Shown here one piece after another: positions 680 through 10,503 of a DNA stretch of 64,000 bases. Made by a program: the position numbers and the translations under genes. The notes beneath the pieces were generated by a model, which searched no databases, was not told the DNA's origin, and saw only the letters and a program-made list of their open reading frames with translations. The stretch spans positions 1-64,000 of the forward strand of contig PLLO01000003.1 of the NCBI GenBank assembly GCA_003142255.1. Reading direction: 5' to 3'. How positions within the stretch are numbered: position 1 is the first letter of the stretch; each line of letters begins with the position of its first letter. This DNA is from Bacteroidales bacterium (GTDB taxonomy: Bacteria; Bacteroidota; Bacteroidia; Bacteroidales; VadinHA17).

Positions 680-760
680 AGCTTAATAATGTTAATCAGA
701 GTGTTCCTTTTTGGTAGTAGAAATCTTGGGTCACTCTTTTTCAGGATGGGTCATTTTTAC

Positions 761-1160
761 TGCTAACGGCCCGGCAATAAAGGGAGGTTGTGTTACCTGA
801 CGCAAGCACCGGGCAGGGTCCCGGTACTTTAGCCAGAAAACTGTCACGGTGCAAGGAGGGTATGGCGCACTTTTTGCTGTCCTGGTACAAATTTTATTGA
901 ATATTACGAGTGTCGCGGTACAAAGTTAATAAGTGGCCGAGAGGTTGTCTCGGTAGCAGAAGGTTTGTAAATGGGCACTGGCGCAGTGTCGCGGTAGAAA
1001 TTGTCTCGGAGCCATAAATTTGTCATGGTGCAGGATTTTAATTGCAGGCAGATGCACGTGTCCGGGTGCAAAGGCCATTACGAATTTGTCTAGGGTGCAG
1101 AAGCAAAAGCAAAAAGTGTGACAAACAACTTACCTTTATTGTCCGTGTTGGGTGTTAGGC
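761..1160 (-). repeat. Long attC-like inverted-repeat element of cassette 1
   Basis: This gene-free stretch (the gap between genes is 680-1249) has attC geometry on the minus strand. An outer box acccaac (1153-1147) precedes a spacer and the inner box caataaagg (1141-1133). Inner box cctttattg (783-775 on the minus strand) and the crossover-like box gttagca (767-761) close the other end. The 9-base inner boxes are perfectly complementary. The loop between them holds nine degenerate copies of TGTCNCGGTGCA on the plus strand, starting at 842, 878, 911, 946, 987, 1002, 1021, 1059 and 1087. No credible coding region is present. At about 400 bp it is far longer than typical attC sites (roughly 60-150 bp). 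Confidence 0.55.
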
Positions 1161-2691: not shown

Positions 2692-4215
2692 TTACTTTAT
2701 GTCCAGATCCTCAATAGGACTCCTCACTGCAATAAGATTACGCCGGCTGACATGAGTGTAAATTTCCGTGGTCCTCGAACTCCTGTGCCCTAAGAGCTCC
2801 TGTATGTACTTGATGTCCAGCCCGCTCTCATGCAGGTGCGTGGCATAGCTGTGCCTCAGGCTGTGTACCCCGACTTCCTTGTTTATTCCGGCCTTTTTCA
2901 AGGCCTGCTTGAAAACATTGTAAACGCTTTCAACCGAATATTTCCCGCCACCCTGGCCTTCAAACAGATATGTGACCGGACGATAGCCGGCAACGTATTC
3001 ATCAAGCTTTGCCCATACTTTGTCCGAAACCGGCACCATCCTGTCCACACGCCCTTTGCCCTCCCTTATATTCAATATCCCCCTGTCCCTGTCAAGATCG
3101 GTCAGCTTTATATTGGTCGCCTCCGATCTTCTTAACCCGCATGAGTAAATCATCCATAAAAGAAGTTTGTGCTTTATATTCCTGGCCGAACCCAGAATTC
3201 TCGTGATCTCATCTTTCGAAAAGACCTTCGGCAATGCCCTGCTGCGCCTCGGCCTCTCCATTATCTGCGGAATTACCTTACCCTTGCCCGCGATCTCATA
3301 ATAAGTCTTTACTGCAGAAATCATCTGGTTCTGATATGATGCCGAAAAACCGAGCTTCACAATGAACGAGTCCATGAAATCAGATACATCATTCTGAGTG
3401 ATCTTTGCAGGATCCTTTTCATTATAATACTTGAAAAACACTTCAAGCAGCGAAAGATAAGATACCGAGGTCCTGTTGCTGTACCGGTTCTCCTCAAGAT
3501 ACCGACGCAGAAGATCAACACCTTCAACCGCTTTTGGCATCATCTGCCTCGACCTGACCTCTTCACTGAACTCTTTTCTCTTTTCTTTCAGATCATCAGG
3601 CACGACTGATTTTTTGACTTTCACCTCAACTCCCTGAGTCGAGAAATAATCGGAGAGGGAATCGACTTTTAGCTGCGTCCACTGAAGCAGAAACTCCTTG
3701 TGGATCTTGTCGTAATAACACTTCCCGTAACTTCTGATCTCATCTATCCACTCTTTTTCGTACCGTCCCCTGAACCTGATCGATAAGCGCCCGCCTTCGT
3801 CACTGATCCGGAATTCGACCGGACCGTACCCAGATTTCAGATTCTTGTTCTTCTCCAGCTTGATGGGAGAGACGGCAGGCTTTTTCTCCAATTCATCGTC
3901 AGGAGGACTTTTTACGACAACCGTAACAGGCTTATGTTCCGGTGGTTCTCCGGTTGCCTGCCTGATGATAATATGCCGGTTGTAACTCGATGATATGGCA
4001 GATATATCCACATCTGCCTTATCTTTGAAAGCGAGGAGTATCTCCTTGATCGATTCCTCATTGTCTTCGACATACCATTGCTTGCGCGTGTTACTGAAAG
4101 CACGGACATGGAGCGACCTGACAGTTTCATCTATCACGGGATCAAAATCAAAATTGATGAAGATCCGCGGTTTTTCACGATGGAAAATCCTTTCCAGAGT
4201 AACTTTTTTGTTCAT
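2692..4215 (-). CDS. Tyrosine recombinase with duplicated N-terminal extension
   Basis: This is a site-specific recombinase of 507 residues, started at the ATG at 4215 rather than the upstream TTG. The last 270 residues are a complete XerC/D-type enzyme. A SAM-like core-binding domain (about 230-330) precedes a catalytic domain with Arg in CGLRRSEA, Lys in REGKGRVDR, HSLRHSYATHL, the second His in LLGHRSSRTT and the Tyr nucleophile in EIYTHVS. The C-terminal tail VRSPIEDL resembles the VRSPLDAL tail of IntI1. The IntI-specific insertion before HSLRH is absent. The first 210 residues hold two related modules of about 55 residues that recall HARP-like DNA-binding repeats. It lies upstream of the cassettes in the same orientation and is the obvious candidate to move them. 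Confidence 0.9.
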   Translation of the reverse strand: MNKKVTLERIFHREKPRIFINFDFDPVIDETVRSLHVRAFSNTRKQWYVEDNEESIKEILLAFKDKADVDISAISSSYNRHIIIRQATGEPPEHKPVTVVVKSPPDDELEKKPAVSPIKLEKNKNLKSGYGPVEFRISDEGGRLSIRFRGRYEKEWIDEIRSYGKCYYDKIHKEFLLQWTQLKVDSLSDYFSTQGVEVKVKKSVVPDDLKEKRKEFSEEVRSRQMMPKAVEGVDLLRRYLEENRYSNRTSVSYLSLLEVFFKYYNEKDPAKITQNDVSDFMDSFIVKLGFSASYQNQMISAVKTYYEIAGKGKVIPQIMERPRRSRALPKVFSKDEITRILGSARNIKHKLLLWMIYSCGLRRSEATNIKLTDLDRDRGILNIREGKGRVDRMVPVSDKVWAKLDEYVAGYRPVTYLFEGQGGGKYSVESVYNVFKQALKKAGINKEVGVHSLRHSYATHLHESGLDIKYIQELLGHRSSRTTEIYTHVSRRNLIAVRSPIEDLDIK

Positions 4216-4261
4216 TAGCACAGCGAGACATGATAAAAACAAATTTAATGAAAATCAATCT

Positions 4262-4318: not shown

Positions 4319-5281
4319 TCAATTACCGGGCTTCAGATCTATTTTGAACCTGATAAAATACTGATTCCTGTCAAGAATAACATCGAAATGGTCAGCTATC
4401 TTCCTGTAATACTGGTTCTCTGAATAGAGATTAGCCTTCTGAGTGACGTTTACACTGTTGAAAAGATTCGTGATGTAAAAAGCCGAAAAGATCAGAGTCG
4501 TTAACGATGGCAGAACGTAATTCCTGTTCGGTTTATCCTTGCTAAGCTCATATTTCCATGCCGAATAAGCTCCGATCCCGAATGCTGCATTGAGCCCGAA
4601 TGCCTGAAGCGCATCGAAGTAGAAACCGGAATATGCCTGCCCGAGGCCAGGTACAATGGCAGATAACGGCAGAGCAATGCCTACATGCTTTTTACTGAAC
4701 GTTGCCGGGCCGGCTAATTCATTTTTGATCCCGGTCAACTCCTCATTGGCAATAAAGGAATTGTCAATGAGGTCGAGGTCTTTAATGCATTCCGGTTTCT
4801 GCCTGGTATTGATCTCGGCATACGCTTTCATGAAATGATACTGGTTTTTGAATAATCCGGGATCCACGATCTTGGAAAGATAAATACCGGCCCTGGTGTA
4901 TTCTTTCTGCATAAGCAGCGAATAGCTGTATTTCATTTTCAGCAGGTCAGCAATCTTATAGCGGGAGTTGTCGAGGTCAAAAATCAGATTTTCAGCTTCT
5001 TTCCAATGACCGGTAAGAAGAGATGCATCAACAGCATCGACAGCGGCATTGATCTTTTTAACCGAATCTGTTTCAAGAAGATAGCTGGAATAATTATAAA
5101 AATACGAAAGCTGGTATTCGCCTTTTTCGAGAAACTTCACACCAAGCCTTCGCAAGGTTCCCGACGAAACAAGCGTATCCTGTGAAAATAAGCTGAATGA
5201 ATTAATGGTTAAGAGAAGGATCAGGATCAATAGTCGTCCAATCCTTCTTTGCGAAGATATTGTTTGCTTTAACAGGGTCAT
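4319..5281 (-). CDS. DUF5683-like membrane protein with N-terminal TPR-like region
   Basis: This is a 320-residue protein. An N-terminal hydrophobic segment (about 15-33) ending at FSQ looks like a signal peptide. A helical region (about 40-185) with repeating aromatic and leucine spacing looks TPR-like. The region around residues 200-275 has the small-residue motif PLSAIVPGLGQAYSGFYFDALQ and two or three membrane segments, as in DUF5683-type proteins of Bacteroidota. No enzymatic motif is visible. Its start lies inside the upstream YidD-like gene (about 80 bases overlap), so translation is likely coupled. It is the last gene of the operon beginning with CsgG, suggesting a role in envelope assembly or secretion, but no specific function can be given. 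Confidence 0.75.
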   Translation of the reverse strand: MTLLKQTISSQRRIGRLLILILLLTINSFSLFSQDTLVSSGTLRRLGVKFLEKGEYQLSYFYNYSSYLLETDSVKKINAAVDAVDASLLTGHWKEAENLIFDLDNSRYKIADLLKMKYSYSLLMQKEYTRAGIYLSKIVDPGLFKNQYHFMKAYAEINTRQKPECIKDLDLIDNSFIANEELTGIKNELAGPATFSKKHVGIALPLSAIVPGLGQAYSGFYFDALQAFGLNAAFGIGAYSAWKYELSKDKPNRNYVLPSLTTLIFSAFYITNLFNSVNVTQKANLYSENQYYRKIADHFDVILDRNQYFIRFKIDLKPGN

Positions 5282-5687
5282 ACACTTTAATGATGTTGTT
5301 TCCGAGATTAACCGGCAGATAATGCTTAAGATATTTCATGTCGAAGTTTTCCCTGAAATAGATCCGGTCCATTCCCATTATAAACCCTAAGACCGCACCA
5401 TTTTCCGACATTGCCGTCAGGGTGAAGGAGGAACAGGATGGTGAAGCAGGACATTTAGGACCCTGCCTCGGGGAAACATTATCCTGGTAATAGTTCAGCA
5501 TTTTTCTGAAGAGAGGATCTGACCGGTGCCTTTTTGCCTGATCCTGCACCTTCGTGAAACCGCCGGCGCTGACTTTCTCCCATGTCTCCCACGACTGTGA
5601 ATGCAGCGATGGGGAAACACAGGTCAGCGCAAGGGAGAAAATAATAATAAGTCTCTTTTCAGTTCTTAAGCAGCTTTTTGTATTCAT
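5202..5687 (-). CDS. YidD-like protein with an N-terminal signal peptide
   Basis: This 161-residue protein starts with a signal peptide (about 1-31, ending SLHSQ). The core around residues 65-115 carries the YidD signature: a YQDNVSPRQGPKCP segment, then PSCSSFTLTAM and a hydrophobic helix, GFIMGMDRIYF. YidD proteins are short membrane-associated factors that assist membrane protein insertion with YidC, normally about 70-100 residues and on the cytoplasmic face. Here the signal peptide and the C-terminal extension of about 50 residues imply a periplasmic or envelope location, so the classical role is doubtful. It overlaps both neighbours (29 bases with the lipoprotein gene, 80 with the DUF5683-like gene), evidence of tight coupling in one operon. 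Confidence 0.8.
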   Translation of the reverse strand: MNTKSCLRTEKRLIIIFSLALTCVSPSLHSQSWETWEKVSAGGFTKVQDQAKRHRSDPLFRKMLNYYQDNVSPRQGPKCPASPSCSSFTLTAMSENGAVLGFIMGMDRIYFRENFDMKYLKHYLPVNLGNNIIKVYDPVKANNIFAKKDWTTIDPDPSLNH

Positions 5688-6696
5688 CGGGAGTGAGGCC
5701 GTAGTTCTTCATGAAATATCCATCAGGGTACGACTTCCACGTTTCATCGCCATATTCATACTTGAATTCAAAAGTGATAGGAATTGAGAGCCCGATTTCC
5801 ATCAGAAGGGCGTTGGCAATCTGCGTTCCGGCCCAGCTTCCAGCATTAGCCATGAACTCTTTCTTGAGATCTTCACTGTCGGGCATGGGAGCATAGAATG
5901 TCATGGCTGCCGAATAATCCTGCATGGCTTTGTCTTTTTCGGCCACAGGTATCTGGTTAAACTTGTTGAAGCCCCCGAAAGCAATTACTTCATGCTTTTT
6001 GATATCAAGAGCCATTATATGAATGACGACATAGACTGTTTTTACCTTCTTGATACCCATCCTGTAATAGTTATATACAGCCGAGATAGCCATTGTGGGT
6101 AGGTAAGCTACGAGGCCAGTCAGCCCCAGGAAGGTCAAGGGCGTTCCTAAAGGGTTCGAAGGCAGGACGCCTGTCTGGGTGTTTTTTGACACCCTGGCAA
6201 TGATCAGGACATCGGCGCCTACATCCTCACCGGCTTTATAAAGAAGGTTGTAATTCGGGGTCATCCCGAACCCGGCATCTTCGGGCGACTTGATATATTT
6301 TGCCTGCAGCCCCAGGAATCCGTATTCCTGTTTCGGGAAGATATCGTTCTTTTTTAAATTATCCTGCGGCAGCTTGTTAAGCATTATCTGCTTATTGACC
6401 AGCTTCATCCTGTTTTTTTTCCACAAAGCCTCTGTAAGCGAGTTTGTTACAACCAGCCCTACATCGTTATAGGCAGGGATCCTGTTAAAAGCGCCGACAC
6501 ATCCATACAGCAAATATCCCTTGCAGAAGCCTTCATCTTCCGACCAGTCCACCACAGGGAGAACGGCAACAGTTGTTTTTGCTGAAGTTATTTTTTCATT
6601 AAGCTTCTCTCCTCCGGTCATCATAAGTGCGTTTGGAGCGCACGAAGCTGCCACGAGAGCAACAGAAGCGATAAGGTAAAATTTAAAGTTTCTCAT
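5659..6696 (-). CDS. Lipoprotein, CsgG-operon partner
   Basis: This is a 345-residue protein when started at the ATG at 6696, giving a clean lipoprotein signal ending VAASC. An in-frame ATG at 6723 would add nine residues and place hydrophilic sequence before the signal. The mature part starts with an alpha/beta segment (TTVAVLPVVDW) followed by a helix (VVTNSLTEALWKKNRMKLVNKQIM), a layout like CsgG or TolB-type domains that bind in the periplasm. A hydrophobic Gly/Leu-rich stretch (about 185-215) may insert into or contact the membrane. I do not recognise the family precisely. It follows the CsgG gene almost without a gap and overlaps the YidD-like gene, so it probably works with CsgG at the outer membrane. 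Confidence 0.75.
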   Translation of the reverse strand: MRNFKFYLIASVALVAASCAPNALMMTGGEKLNEKITSAKTTVAVLPVVDWSEDEGFCKGYLLYGCVGAFNRIPAYNDVGLVVTNSLTEALWKKNRMKLVNKQIMLNKLPQDNLKKNDIFPKQEYGFLGLQAKYIKSPEDAGFGMTPNYNLLYKAGEDVGADVLIIARVSKNTQTGVLPSNPLGTPLTFLGLTGLVAYLPTMAISAVYNYYRMGIKKVKTVYVVIHIMALDIKKHEVIAFGGFNKFNQIPVAEKDKAMQDYSAAMTFYAPMPDSEDLKKEFMANAGSWAGTQIANALLMEIGLSIPITFEFKYEYGDETWKSYPDGYFMKNYGLTPDEYKKLLKN

Positions 6697-6716
6697 TATT
6701 ATCAGGTTTTTATGTT

Positions 6717-7460
6717 CTACCATTTATACAAATTGCTTTCAATAACTTTATTAATAAGCTGCCGCGATGCATTTCTGATCCCCCTGCCTGCGAGCGTGTT
6801 ATCGAACCCCTGGACACCCTGCCCGAACTCGATCGCGGTTTTTACGCCTGGAATAGGAAGAAGCATCTCAAGACCGAAGACCGAATTTTTTGACATGGCA
6901 ATGCCAACAGTGGAAGTCGTAAGCGGAACCTCCTTCGTGGGCACATCGGTGAATTTAATGTCGATGGCGACCCTGGCAGTTCCCTTGCCCATCTCCATTG
7001 TAAGTCCGCCGCCGACTCCGTAATTCGAATCGGTAATCTTTGTCTTAACTGTTGTTCCGGTTTTCTTTATGCCGAATTCAGTAACGGAGCCGCTGATTAT
7101 ATACCTGACTCCGAGTCCTCTGCATACTTCGAGAAGCTCTTCGTTGGTAAGCTGGTCATAAGAGTACTTCATCTCGTCTATCTTGGCTGCCAACATCGTC
7201 CTGTCGATCAGTATGAATCTTTTTGATTCCACCAGAGCTGACTGGAACATTGTTGTTGCCGCTCTTCCAAGCACATCAGATTCAAAAAAGCTTTCATTTG
7301 TAAAATCGATCACCGTTACCTTTGGTTCATTTCCCGTGGGGGTGTACTCAGGTATCGGGATGACAACATTATCATCGTCTTTCTCCTGTGCAAGCACGGG
7401 TTGGAAGATTAAGAAGGCGATTAAGAAGCTTAATGAAGTAGAATAAATTTTTTGTCTCAT
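6717..7460 (-). CDS. CsgG/HfaB-family outer-membrane secretion protein
   Basis: This 247-residue protein belongs to the CsgG family, whose best-known member forms the nonameric outer-membrane pore that exports curli subunits. Visible features are a signal peptide (1-24, ending VLAQ) and the hallmark region from about residue 47: VTVIDFTN, then LGRAATTMFQSALVESKRFILIDR, and GVRYIISGSVTEF. The beta-hairpin region that forms the pore follows (about 135-190). The protein ends with a conserved helix (LINKVIESNLYKW). There is no Cys after the signal peptide, so it is not lipidated as E. coli CsgG is. No curlin repeats, CsgE or CsgF are seen nearby, so the substrate is unknown. It is the first gene of a four-gene operon. 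Confidence 0.88.
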   Translation of the reverse strand: MRQKIYSTSLSFLIAFLIFQPVLAQEKDDDNVVIPIPEYTPTGNEPKVTVIDFTNESFFESDVLGRAATTMFQSALVESKRFILIDRTMLAAKIDEMKYSYDQLTNEELLEVCRGLGVRYIISGSVTEFGIKKTGTTVKTKITDSNYGVGGGLTMEMGKGTARVAIDIKFTDVPTKEVPLTTSTVGIAMSKNSVFGLEMLLPIPGVKTAIEFGQGVQGFDNTLAGRGIRNASRQLINKVIESNLYKW

Positions 7461-7719
7461 CTTAAAAGAATATCAAACCGGCTGCAAATCCCGAACTATA
7501 AAAAACTCATTTTGAACTATTCTTCAGAATGTAATTTCTGTCTGTTACAAAACTATTTTCAGAATATGTTGAAGAGCCTCAGGTTTTATGCTGATAAATT
7601 TAACAATAAAATACGACTTTGTTCAATATTATAAAACAATTCTGAAGAAAATATTTCACCGTGAAACTGACTTTTCAGGTCACATCTTTTCCGGTTTCAA
7701 TGACTGCTGAATCAATCTG

Positions 7720-10503
7720 TCATTGAGCTGTTTTGGGAAGCATTACAAACTCAAAATAATTATCAAGAAAAACCTTGTTTGCCATTTCCTGAATCTTCTT
7801 GCCGTCGAGGTTCTTGTAGATTTCTGTCGAGTTTTCCGGCAAAGGAGTATAAATGCCATTGTTGATATAACACTTTACCCGGTCCATTATATAATCGTTT
7901 GTCTTCATCCTCTCTGCATCTTCCTTCAGGAAATTCTCACGGGTCATGTTCACCTCTTCTTCGGTGACACCCTTTGTCTTGATATTATAAAGCTCATCGA
8001 GCACTAATCCCCTCAGGTAATCAGCCCTCTCGGGAGCACAGGTGAAGTTCATCGCTATCTTATAAGTTTGTGCAGGTCGTGCATTTGTAGCAGCCGAAAC
8101 ACTTACTCCATAGGTACCGCCCTCTTTTTCCCTGATTGAGGTTACGTACCTCATGTTCAGGATGTACCTGAGAGCATTTATATATTCAATATTCTCTGGA
8201 GTGTAGGGAAAATCGCCATAGAAATATACATAATTCATAGCCTTCGGATCCTTCATTTCAACATAGATCTTTTTGACGAAATGTTCCTTTTTTGGCCATA
8301 GTTTGTAATCAATCCAGGATTCCTTGCGGCCAAAATCGGGAATTGAACCGATATATTTTTCGATCAGCGGAATTAGTTTTACAGTATCTATGTTTCCGAC
8401 AAAAACGAAATAAAAATCACCGGCATTCTTATAGCGGTCATTAGCAATTGAATAAGCTTTTTCAATATTCATTCTGTCGTAGAAGTCAGTATTTTGAAGG
8501 ACAGTCCGCGGACTATAATTGGTGAGCAGCATCGAAAGCGTATCTGAAAATACAGCGTTTGGATTAGCATTCCTGTTTGCCAGGCTGGCCTTGTTTCTTT
8601 GGATTGAAGATTTTAAAATCTCGTCATCATGCCGTACAGGCGTAAATTCCAGATAGAAAAGCTGAAGCATCGTTTCAATATCTTTGACTGAAGAAGATCC
8701 GTATATTCCTTCTTCCAGTTCTGTTATTATAGCGCCAGCATTCGCATTTTTTCCGGCCAGAAACTTCCTGAGATCCTGATATGAAAAGTCACCAAATCCG
8801 CACATGTTCTTTGCAGTGGCTGCAAGGAATGCAGAAGGCAGATCTCCTGTTGCAACAAGTGAATTGCCACCATAGCTGACAGCATGCAGTTGGATTTCAT
8901 CAGCTTTGTTGTTGGTGTATTTAAGGTAAACTTTGGCACCATTTGCAAGAGTAAGTTCCGTACCGTCAAATTCTTTGATGTACTCATTCCTGACGACCGG
9001 CGATCCTTTCAATTCATCTTTTATAAGAGATGTTGGGAGAACCTTATCGATATAGGGCTCAATTTGTGATTTATTAACCTCGTCCCTGGCAGCTATTAAT
9101 TCATTTTCTGAAGGTATTTTCACTCCCTCTTTTACAGGACCAGTGACAACGATGACTTGATTTTCATCAGTTATCCACTCTTTTGGAAGAGAGTTCACCT
9201 GTTCAAGTGTCACGGTCGGCAGAAAACTTTTTGCCAGTTCATAAGTGTAAGAAATGCCAGGTGCTGGATTGCCGGAAGTGAAATTGCTTATGTACTCATA
9301 TACAATGGAGGAAGAGAGACGTTTTTCTCTTTCATTATAAGAATTCTCATATGATGAAAGCAATCTTTTTTTCGCCCGTTCCAGCTCGCCTGCTGTAAAC
9401 CCGAACCTTTTAACTCTTTCATTCTCCGTCAGAGCAGCTTTGAAAGACCTTACCGGATCGGCGGTCAGGGCATTGACATACATAACATAGCAATCCTGGT
9501 ACTTTGTAAGGGAACTATATCCTGAGTATGCCGATAACATTGGCGGATTCTCCTTCTGAATCAATTCATTGAACCTGTCTGAAAGCATCATGTTATAAAG
9601 ATTATTTACTAGCCTTTGCCTGTAATAATTCAGATCCTTTACTTCAACACCGGGATGCTTTATATATAACTGGATTGATAAATTCTGTGCCTCCTTGTCA
9701 GTTGCAATTGTCACAAGAAGATCTTTATTATCCTTTACTATCGTTTTTGCATCTTCAGGTTTCTTTTTGTTCTCAGGGATATCGGAGAAGAGCTTTTCAA
9801 TTTTTTTTCTGATTGCTTCTCTGTCGATATCACCCACAACTACAACAGCCTGGAGATCGGGCCTGTACCATTTTTTATAATAGCTGCGCAGGAAATCGGG
9901 AGCTGCATTATCAATTACATTAACTTCTCCAATGACATTGTGATTGGCATATTTTGAACCTGCGTAAAGGACAGGATTCGTGATCTTACTCATCCTGAGG
10001 CCTGAACCTCCGCCTGTCCGCCATTCTTCATGTATGACTCCTCTTTCCTTGTTGATCTCAGCATCGGAATATGTAACGTTTGAGGCCCATTCGCGAAGAA
10101 CGAGAAGCGAGGAATCAATACATCCTTCCCTTAAAGTGGGTACATCGTTCAGGGTATAAACAGTCATGGCGCTGGAAGTACCTGCATTTAACCCTTTCCC
10201 AAACGACACACCGATTGATTGCAGGTAATTCAGAATTCCTTTATCGGGGAAAGCTTTGGTGCCGTTAAAAGCCATATGCTCGCAGAAATGAGCCAGACCA
10301 TTCTGGTCTTCATTCTCATTAATTGCACCGGCGTTTTCCACAAGGTAAAACATGGCACGCTCTTTCGGCAAAATGTTCTTTTGAATATAATAAGTCAGCC
10401 CGTTATCGAGCTTTCCATACAGAACATCAGGATTCAGAGGGACGACTTGTCCATACAGCGAAGTCATCCCGATCATCAGAAGCAGAGAGAAGAAAGTTTT
10501 CAT
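7720..10503 (-). CDS. Secreted M16 (pitrilysin-like) zinc metallopeptidase
   Basis: This 927-residue protein has a signal peptide (1-19). The first M16 domain carries the inverted zinc motif HxxEH (HFCEH, residues 72-76), with the distal acidic ligand expected in the NKERGVIHEEWR segment. Inactive M16C-type domains follow: a central one around 185-370 and another starting near 690, as in two-domain pitrilysins that close like a clam around short peptides. The signal peptide places it in the periplasm or outside the cell. The gene stands alone, about 260 bases from the CsgG operon and divergent from the GH97 gene. The start is an ATG that fits the signal peptide. Confidence 0.93.
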   Translation of the reverse strand: MKTFFSLLLMIGMTSLYGQVVPLNPDVLYGKLDNGLTYYIQKNILPKERAMFYLVENAGAINENEDQNGLAHFCEHMAFNGTKAFPDKGILNYLQSIGVSFGKGLNAGTSSAMTVYTLNDVPTLREGCIDSSLLVLREWASNVTYSDAEINKERGVIHEEWRTGGGSGLRMSKITNPVLYAGSKYANHNVIGEVNVIDNAAPDFLRSYYKKWYRPDLQAVVVVGDIDREAIRKKIEKLFSDIPENKKKPEDAKTIVKDNKDLLVTIATDKEAQNLSIQLYIKHPGVEVKDLNYYRQRLVNNLYNMMLSDRFNELIQKENPPMLSAYSGYSSLTKYQDCYVMYVNALTADPVRSFKAALTENERVKRFGFTAGELERAKKRLLSSYENSYNEREKRLSSSIVYEYISNFTSGNPAPGISYTYELAKSFLPTVTLEQVNSLPKEWITDENQVIVVTGPVKEGVKIPSENELIAARDEVNKSQIEPYIDKVLPTSLIKDELKGSPVVRNEYIKEFDGTELTLANGAKVYLKYTNNKADEIQLHAVSYGGNSLVATGDLPSAFLAATAKNMCGFGDFSYQDLRKFLAGKNANAGAIITELEEGIYGSSSVKDIETMLQLFYLEFTPVRHDDEILKSSIQRNKASLANRNANPNAVFSDTLSMLLTNYSPRTVLQNTDFYDRMNIEKAYSIANDRYKNAGDFYFVFVGNIDTVKLIPLIEKYIGSIPDFGRKESWIDYKLWPKKEHFVKKIYVEMKDPKAMNYVYFYGDFPYTPENIEYINALRYILNMRYVTSIREKEGGTYGVSVSAATNARPAQTYKIAMNFTCAPERADYLRGLVLDELYNIKTKGVTEEEVNMTRENFLKEDAERMKTNDYIMDRVKCYINNGIYTPLPENSTEIYKNLDGKKIQEMANKVFLDNYFEFVMLPKTAQ

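Follow-up and report, generated by a model that had tools for sequence, protein, structure and literature searches.

A predicted exported YidD-like protein of Bacteroidales and its likely TPR-DUF5683 partner: a distinct clade with a candidate periplasmic role

The window, i.e. the whole stretch of DNA analysed here, comprises 64,000 nucleotides from a Bacteroidales bacterium (assembly GCA_003142255.1, contig PLLO01000003.1). Near its start the minus strand carries a run of overlapping genes encoding, in order, a CsgG-family protein, a lipoprotein, an exported YidD-like protein (called exYidD) and a protein with a TPR-like region and a DUF5683-like end (the partner). The features are listed below, with their evidence in brackets.

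6717..7460, minus strand: CsgG-family protein with signal peptide (PF03783, 44.3 bits, cut-off 20.8)
5659..6723, minus strand: lineage-specific lipoprotein with an SCAP lipobox by eye (no Pfam family)
5202..5687, minus strand: exYidD, predicted exported YidD-like protein, 161 aa (ATG start; PF01809, TIGR00278, exported-YidD HMM)
5598..5687, minus strand: predicted signal peptide of exYidD, residues 1-30, cut before Gln31 (sequence; Q31 in 16/16; strict rule passed)
5358..5513, minus strand: YidD core, residues 59-110, with CPASPSCS (C79, C85), G97, G101 and R108 and without the third cysteine (Pfam, 16-protein alignment, motif rule)
5271..5279, minus strand: DPV motif, residues 137-139, counterpart of the classical DPVP end, here further downstream (16-protein alignment)
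4319..5281, minus strand: TPR-DUF5683 partner with signal peptide, TPR-like region and DUF5683-like end, PGLGQAYSG (PF18935 below cut-off; partner HMM)
2692-4242: tyrosine recombinase, 516 aa, with a long N-terminal extension (found after the exYidD operon in the window and in locus L033)

The exYidD gene overlaps both of its neighbours, as the initial annotation had stated: it shares 29 nt (5659-5687) with the upstream lipoprotein gene and 80 nt (5202-5281) with the downstream partner gene, provided that the partner's first ATG is used. Its product matches PF01809 at residues 60-109 with 39.8 bits (Pfam cut-off 27) and TIGR00278 with 48 bits (cut-off 40). Judged by profile score, it is a member of the YidD-domain family, and a chance resemblance is ruled out by the same two curated cut-offs. 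On an exported-YidD HMM built without the window row it scores 55.7 bits (E 1.2e-15). Twelve of 41 relatives match it at E 1e-4 or better, and its own genome gives the only strong match. This genome also contains an additional, classical YidD on another contig, which reaches 87.9 bits vs 41.2 for the window copy. When this classical protein was compared with PDB by sequence, no YidD was found and the one match obtained (E 0.96) is unrelated. AlphaFold models built from two-row alignments were unusable for exYidD (mean pLDDT 32.6) and for the partner (42.8).

Two further parts of the initial annotation were partly right. The core does contain cysteines, C79 and C85, but these are two of the three YidD cysteines, the third being replaced by Arg112 according to the 16-protein alignment or by Glu113 according to the motif rule. 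The C-terminus is indeed enlarged, but part of what had been described as an extension is extra length inserted ahead of the conserved DP end motif (YDPVK, residues 136-140), and a tail comes after that motif. As a side observation, C79 and C85 (5433-5453) are six residues apart and could pair as a periplasmic disulfide; the third cysteine is absent in half of the exported set.

To place the window protein among its relatives, 72 exported and 45 classical proteins were compared. The 72 are the matches listed in the order and phylum searches and in the surrounding loci, and so form a lower bound. A protein was classed as "exported" here if its HMM match extended into the N-terminal columns (68 of 72); L004, L085, L104 and L135 were added by hand. 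Extra regions entered the set according to how far the hits extended and how long the frames were, and neighbouring genes played no part in this choice; two genomes (G191 and G042) were selected for their long frames, so that the sampling favours fusions. The window and L033 are near-copies and both stand within the 72, and a 73rd exYidD in a congener (G685) lies outside the counts.

A maximum-likelihood tree of the 117 cores, made without the N-terminal part, separates the 72 exported from the 45 classical proteins by one branch with support 99/85, on 86 usable columns and with a bootstrap not fully settled. From this comparison of sequences, the window protein is placed in a distinct exported YidD clade. 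The DPVP end occurs in 43 of the 45 classical proteins and in none of the exported ones. The third cysteine is kept by all 45 classical proteins, whereas in the exported set 36 proteins have Cys at this position, 34 have Asp and two (the window and L033) have some other residue; L134 and nine classical rows were scored by eye. The exported clade is present in at least 30 of 295 order genomes, the window genome included, and in at least 38 of 395 phylum genomes besides the window's, which extends it to several other classes; a PF01809 match of any kind is found in 284 of the 295. A plasmid search with the exYidD of L006 returned two records, both matching the core only. In two genomes, G160 (L095) and G233 (L101), two exYidD modules of different subtype lie close together.

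The hydrophobic N-terminus of exYidD runs into SLHS and then QSWETW, and the reading of a YidD core behind a signal peptide was borne out by a strict rule (a hydrophobic run, then Ala/Gly/Ser/Pro, then Gln, all upstream of the first cysteine), which the window protein passes. In the alignment of 16 proteins, chosen by hand as exported-looking, Q31 directly follows the hydrophobic N-terminus and is invariant (16/16), and so are Cys79, Pro83-Ser84-Cys85-Ser86, Gly97, Gly101 and Arg108. The strict rule is passed by 69 of the 72 exported vs 1 of the 45 classical proteins, a contrast partly built in because the exported set was defined by an HMM covering N-terminal columns; the core-only tree is free of this. 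Of the three that fail, L086, L118 and L119, each resembles a signal peptide by eye, and L103 passes solely via its fused partner. A loose rule also hits 20 of 45 classical proteins, since the helix before their core often ends in FYQ. Between the glutamine and the first cysteine lie 28 to 67 residues, with a median of 54 (68 rule-passing proteins, L103 left out). In none of 68 exported proteins up to 260 aa was another strongly hydrophobic segment (KD19 1.6 or more) found near or after the core.

With such cleavable-looking signal peptides throughout the clade, the predicted export of exYidD out of the cytoplasm is well supported, in agreement with the relocation that had been proposed for it. 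That the signal peptide is read from sequence lends slight support to a different view, in which the N-terminus anchors the protein in the membrane and leaves the YidD core in the cytoplasm. We regard this as very improbable. With a KD19 of 1.46, the hydrophobic stretch of the window protein is only modest for an anchor, and we reject an anchor in place of a signal peptide on the cut-site glutamine (16/16), on the length of the spacer and on three fusions in which YidD is placed ahead of the TPR part with one signal peptide in front.

These fusions lead to the partner. The window partner scores 19.8 bits on PF18935, below the Pfam cut-off of 26.7, and so does not reach the DUF5683 gathering score. 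On a downstream-partner HMM built without the window and L033 it scores 54.6 bits (E 3.9e-15, positions 5-272 of 280); proteins of the second-partner (B) type reach similar scores on this HMM, which leaves the choice between A and B undecided. An identification of the DUF5683-like end with TM2 reached a probability of only 28.7% and is hence not claimed.

In 63 of the 72 exported loci the gene immediately downstream, on the same strand, encodes a TPR-DUF5683 protein, mostly with overlapping stop and start, and the same 63 loci were recovered with the partner HMM that omits the window and L033. Three proteins (L023, L085 and L104) have YidD fused ahead of the partner in one frame, with one signal peptide for both parts. 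Altogether 66 of the 72 exported YidD proteins have an adjacent or fused partner. None was seen beside the remaining six: L004, L005, L128, L135, L137 and the second copy of L101, which the end of the stretch cuts off. Judged by motif, at least 36 loci have a second partner, B, behind the first. In L103, B is fused ahead of YidD and the downstream partner is still next door. This fusion (7468-8643), which lacks a YidD signal peptide, is a natural topology test.

Homologues without a signal peptide in the same operon would have spoken against export, and among the classical proteins there was no such case: the partner is adjacent to none of the 45 classical YidD genes (downstream sequence of 302 nt or more, median 1494); at one classical locus, L099, a module lies about 5 kb away. 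L103 is a partial case: its YidD has lost its own signal peptide but forms the rear part of a fusion whose partner part carries one. The clade, its signal peptides, the adjacency of the partner and the fusions are direct readings of the sequences. At this level the partnership is well supported: the TPR-DUF5683 protein is the likely partner of exYidD, and the two form an old and widespread gene pair. That exYidD is so constantly paired with, or fused to, a single type of envelope protein also weighs against a lytic, membrane-active role for the exported protein. Two things point to lysis, the old name "haemolytic domain" and a report that YtjA of B. subtilis lyses cells (PMC3573977), but we give this reading almost no credence.

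Upstream of exYidD, a signal-peptide protein of about 230 aa was found in 25 of the 72 loci, belonging to the order and two other families. Its matches in PDB are weak (best E 0.02), and a LolA-like nature was unsupported, with one member scoring 14.9 bits on DUF4292 (cut-off 23). The module of L025 has a TM2 protein upstream (PF05154, 54.7 bits).

Classical YidD sits at the cytoplasmic side of the inner membrane. Its role as an insertion helper, derived from E. coli work, is worded as putative or suggested in the literature (PMC8082313, PMC3573977), and similarly in PMC6822775. The explanation that we find best, and hold with about even confidence, is that a periplasmic YidD assembles or scaffolds its TPR-DUF5683 partner. 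A duplicated YidD would have gained a signal peptide early in the phylum and then moved to the periplasm. The exported protein, cut before Gln31, would be soluble or surface-bound on the periplasmic side of a membrane, and the protein encoded directly downstream would be its partner. There exYidD would most likely help to fold, insert or hold the partner's hydrophobic DUF5683-like end from the periplasmic side, mirroring the presumed cytoplasmic-side role of classical YidD. In the window lineage a CsgG-type protein and a lipoprotein would have been added to the pair, which may there be coupled to an outer-membrane pore. We infer in this scheme that the two proteins form a physical complex, that exYidD is located at a membrane surface and that it has an assembly role. 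The B::YidD fusion of L103 fits a periplasmic YidD only if the partner's hydrophobic end crosses the membrane an even number of times. Counting against the scheme are the six exported proteins that show no partner, the window partner's score below the Pfam DUF5683 cut-off and its position in the partner tree.

The stable gene order and the fusions would also fit an exYidD that is built permanently, as a structural subunit, into an envelope complex together with the TPR-DUF5683 proteins and gives no insertion help. In some groups this complex would also include the 230-aa signal-peptide protein, upstream in the 25 loci mentioned, and a TM2-like small protein as in the L025 module. The data here separate a subunit from an assembly factor in no way. 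We consider a subunit a serious possibility, if a somewhat less probable one than assembly or scaffolding of the partner by a periplasmic YidD.

The window's own module departs from the common pattern. Locus L033 has the end of the lipoprotein gene (encoding its C-terminal part), exYidD, the partner and the recombinase in the window's order, with 91.6% DNA identity. Path lengths in the YidD tree place the fused L023 and L104 closest to the window once L033 is set aside, with no strong support. In the partner tree, the main downstream-partner group excludes the window and the fused forms, which are found on B's side of the tree with support of 85 to 95; the nearest row after L033 is the fused L104, by a hair. 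No second partner was seen beside the window or the three YidD-first fusions, and for this reason the window appears to be of a single-partner kind. On these sequence features, the window copy looks like an unusual single-partner variant without the third YidD cysteine.

It had been proposed that exYidD assists a CsgG-type outer-membrane pore. The CsgG gene lies two genes upstream within one overlapping run, and it is the only CsgG match in its own genome. On the other hand, a phmmer search with the window CsgG (E 0.01) gave no homologue across the remaining fetched loci, many of which extend only about 1.5 kb per side. The window lipoprotein was found in its own genome only, among 295 order and 395 phylum genomes (the samples overlap). 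A comparison of CsgG and the lipoprotein with PDB gave nothing useful. Congener G685 has an M16 gene matching the window's neighbour with 94% protein identity; no CsgG match occurs in the 605 bases remaining on the contig beside it, yet G685 has an ordinary exYidD and partner elsewhere in its genome. These three lines (phmmer on the loci, the lipoprotein in both genome samples and the G685 locus) rule out CsgG as a conserved partner. Thus the suggested survey of homologue neighbours succeeded for the DUF5683-like gene, adjacent or fused in 66 of 72, and failed for CsgG, which phmmer detected at none of the other loci fetched; help for a CsgG pore as the general role of exYidD is unsupported, and we consider it improbable. 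CsgG could still be a local client of exYidD in the window lineage.

The recombinase beyond the partner was compared with two models. It is the best match in its own genome to the integron integrase model, with 185.5 bits (cut-off 265) split around the model's middle, and it scores higher, 212.6, on the XerA model (cut-off 220); the integrase model gives matches in all 14 control genomes. A dispersed repeat with attC-like ends, TAACACGGACAATAAAGG ... CCTTTATTGCCGGGCCGTTA, is present at 757-1152 of the window, in L182 on contig C5 of the same genome, and in L183, L184 and L175. The repeats of C5 sit between short ORFs, mostly in the same direction, in units of about 130 bp or longer, and repeats with attC-like ends flank the M16 gene of G685 on both sides. 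The array looks like an integron-style cassette array. When window positions 757-940 were folded as DNA, no excess structure was found (z 0.09), which counts against such a reading.

Taken at its widest, the analysis would point to a previously undescribed periplasmic machine, carried by Bacteroidota and other classes of the phylum. It would combine an exported YidD with one or two TPR-DUF5683 membrane proteins, the YidD fold would act on membrane proteins from the periplasmic face, and the machine would have been rewired to a CsgG-type outer-membrane channel in the window lineage. We offer this only tentatively and rate it as rather unlikely in its full extent. Among the literature matches listed for YidD, PF01809 and DUF5683 (titles and abstract starts, with few subscription papers or preprints covered), no exported YidD appeared, and novelty is unproven. 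The clade nevertheless offers YidD a likely dedicated partner, its natural fusions identify the proteins that act jointly, and with a setting in the periplasm, location is easy to test. The cut-off of TIGR00278, NCBI's YidD equivalog model, was passed by all six exported proteins scanned, the window's included; that the model names exported relatives as the classical factor is a warning, and the YidD label on the window protein is probably misleading.

When compared with known systems, the window shares with the CsgG family (PF03783) a gene in the same overlapping run, but this gene has no lipobox by eye, is without exYidD linkage in the other fetched loci and, unlike the curli system, has no curli genes noted beside it. 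The window partner ends in the PGxGxxYxG hydrophobic region of DUF5683 (PF18935), but has a TPR-like region in front and scores under the Pfam cut-off. With YidD (PF01809, TIGR00278), exYidD has in common the core CxxxP(S/T)CS signature, the conserved glycines and arginine and the DP end motif. It differs from classical YidD in its signal peptide and the spacer of about 54 residues (clade median) before the first cysteine, in lacking the DPVP end and, in the window, the third cysteine, and in forming a separate clade. Finally, classical YidD belongs to the cluster order rnpA-yidD-yidC (PMC10502375), whereas the neighbours of the window exYidD are a lipoprotein and a TPR-DUF5683 protein.
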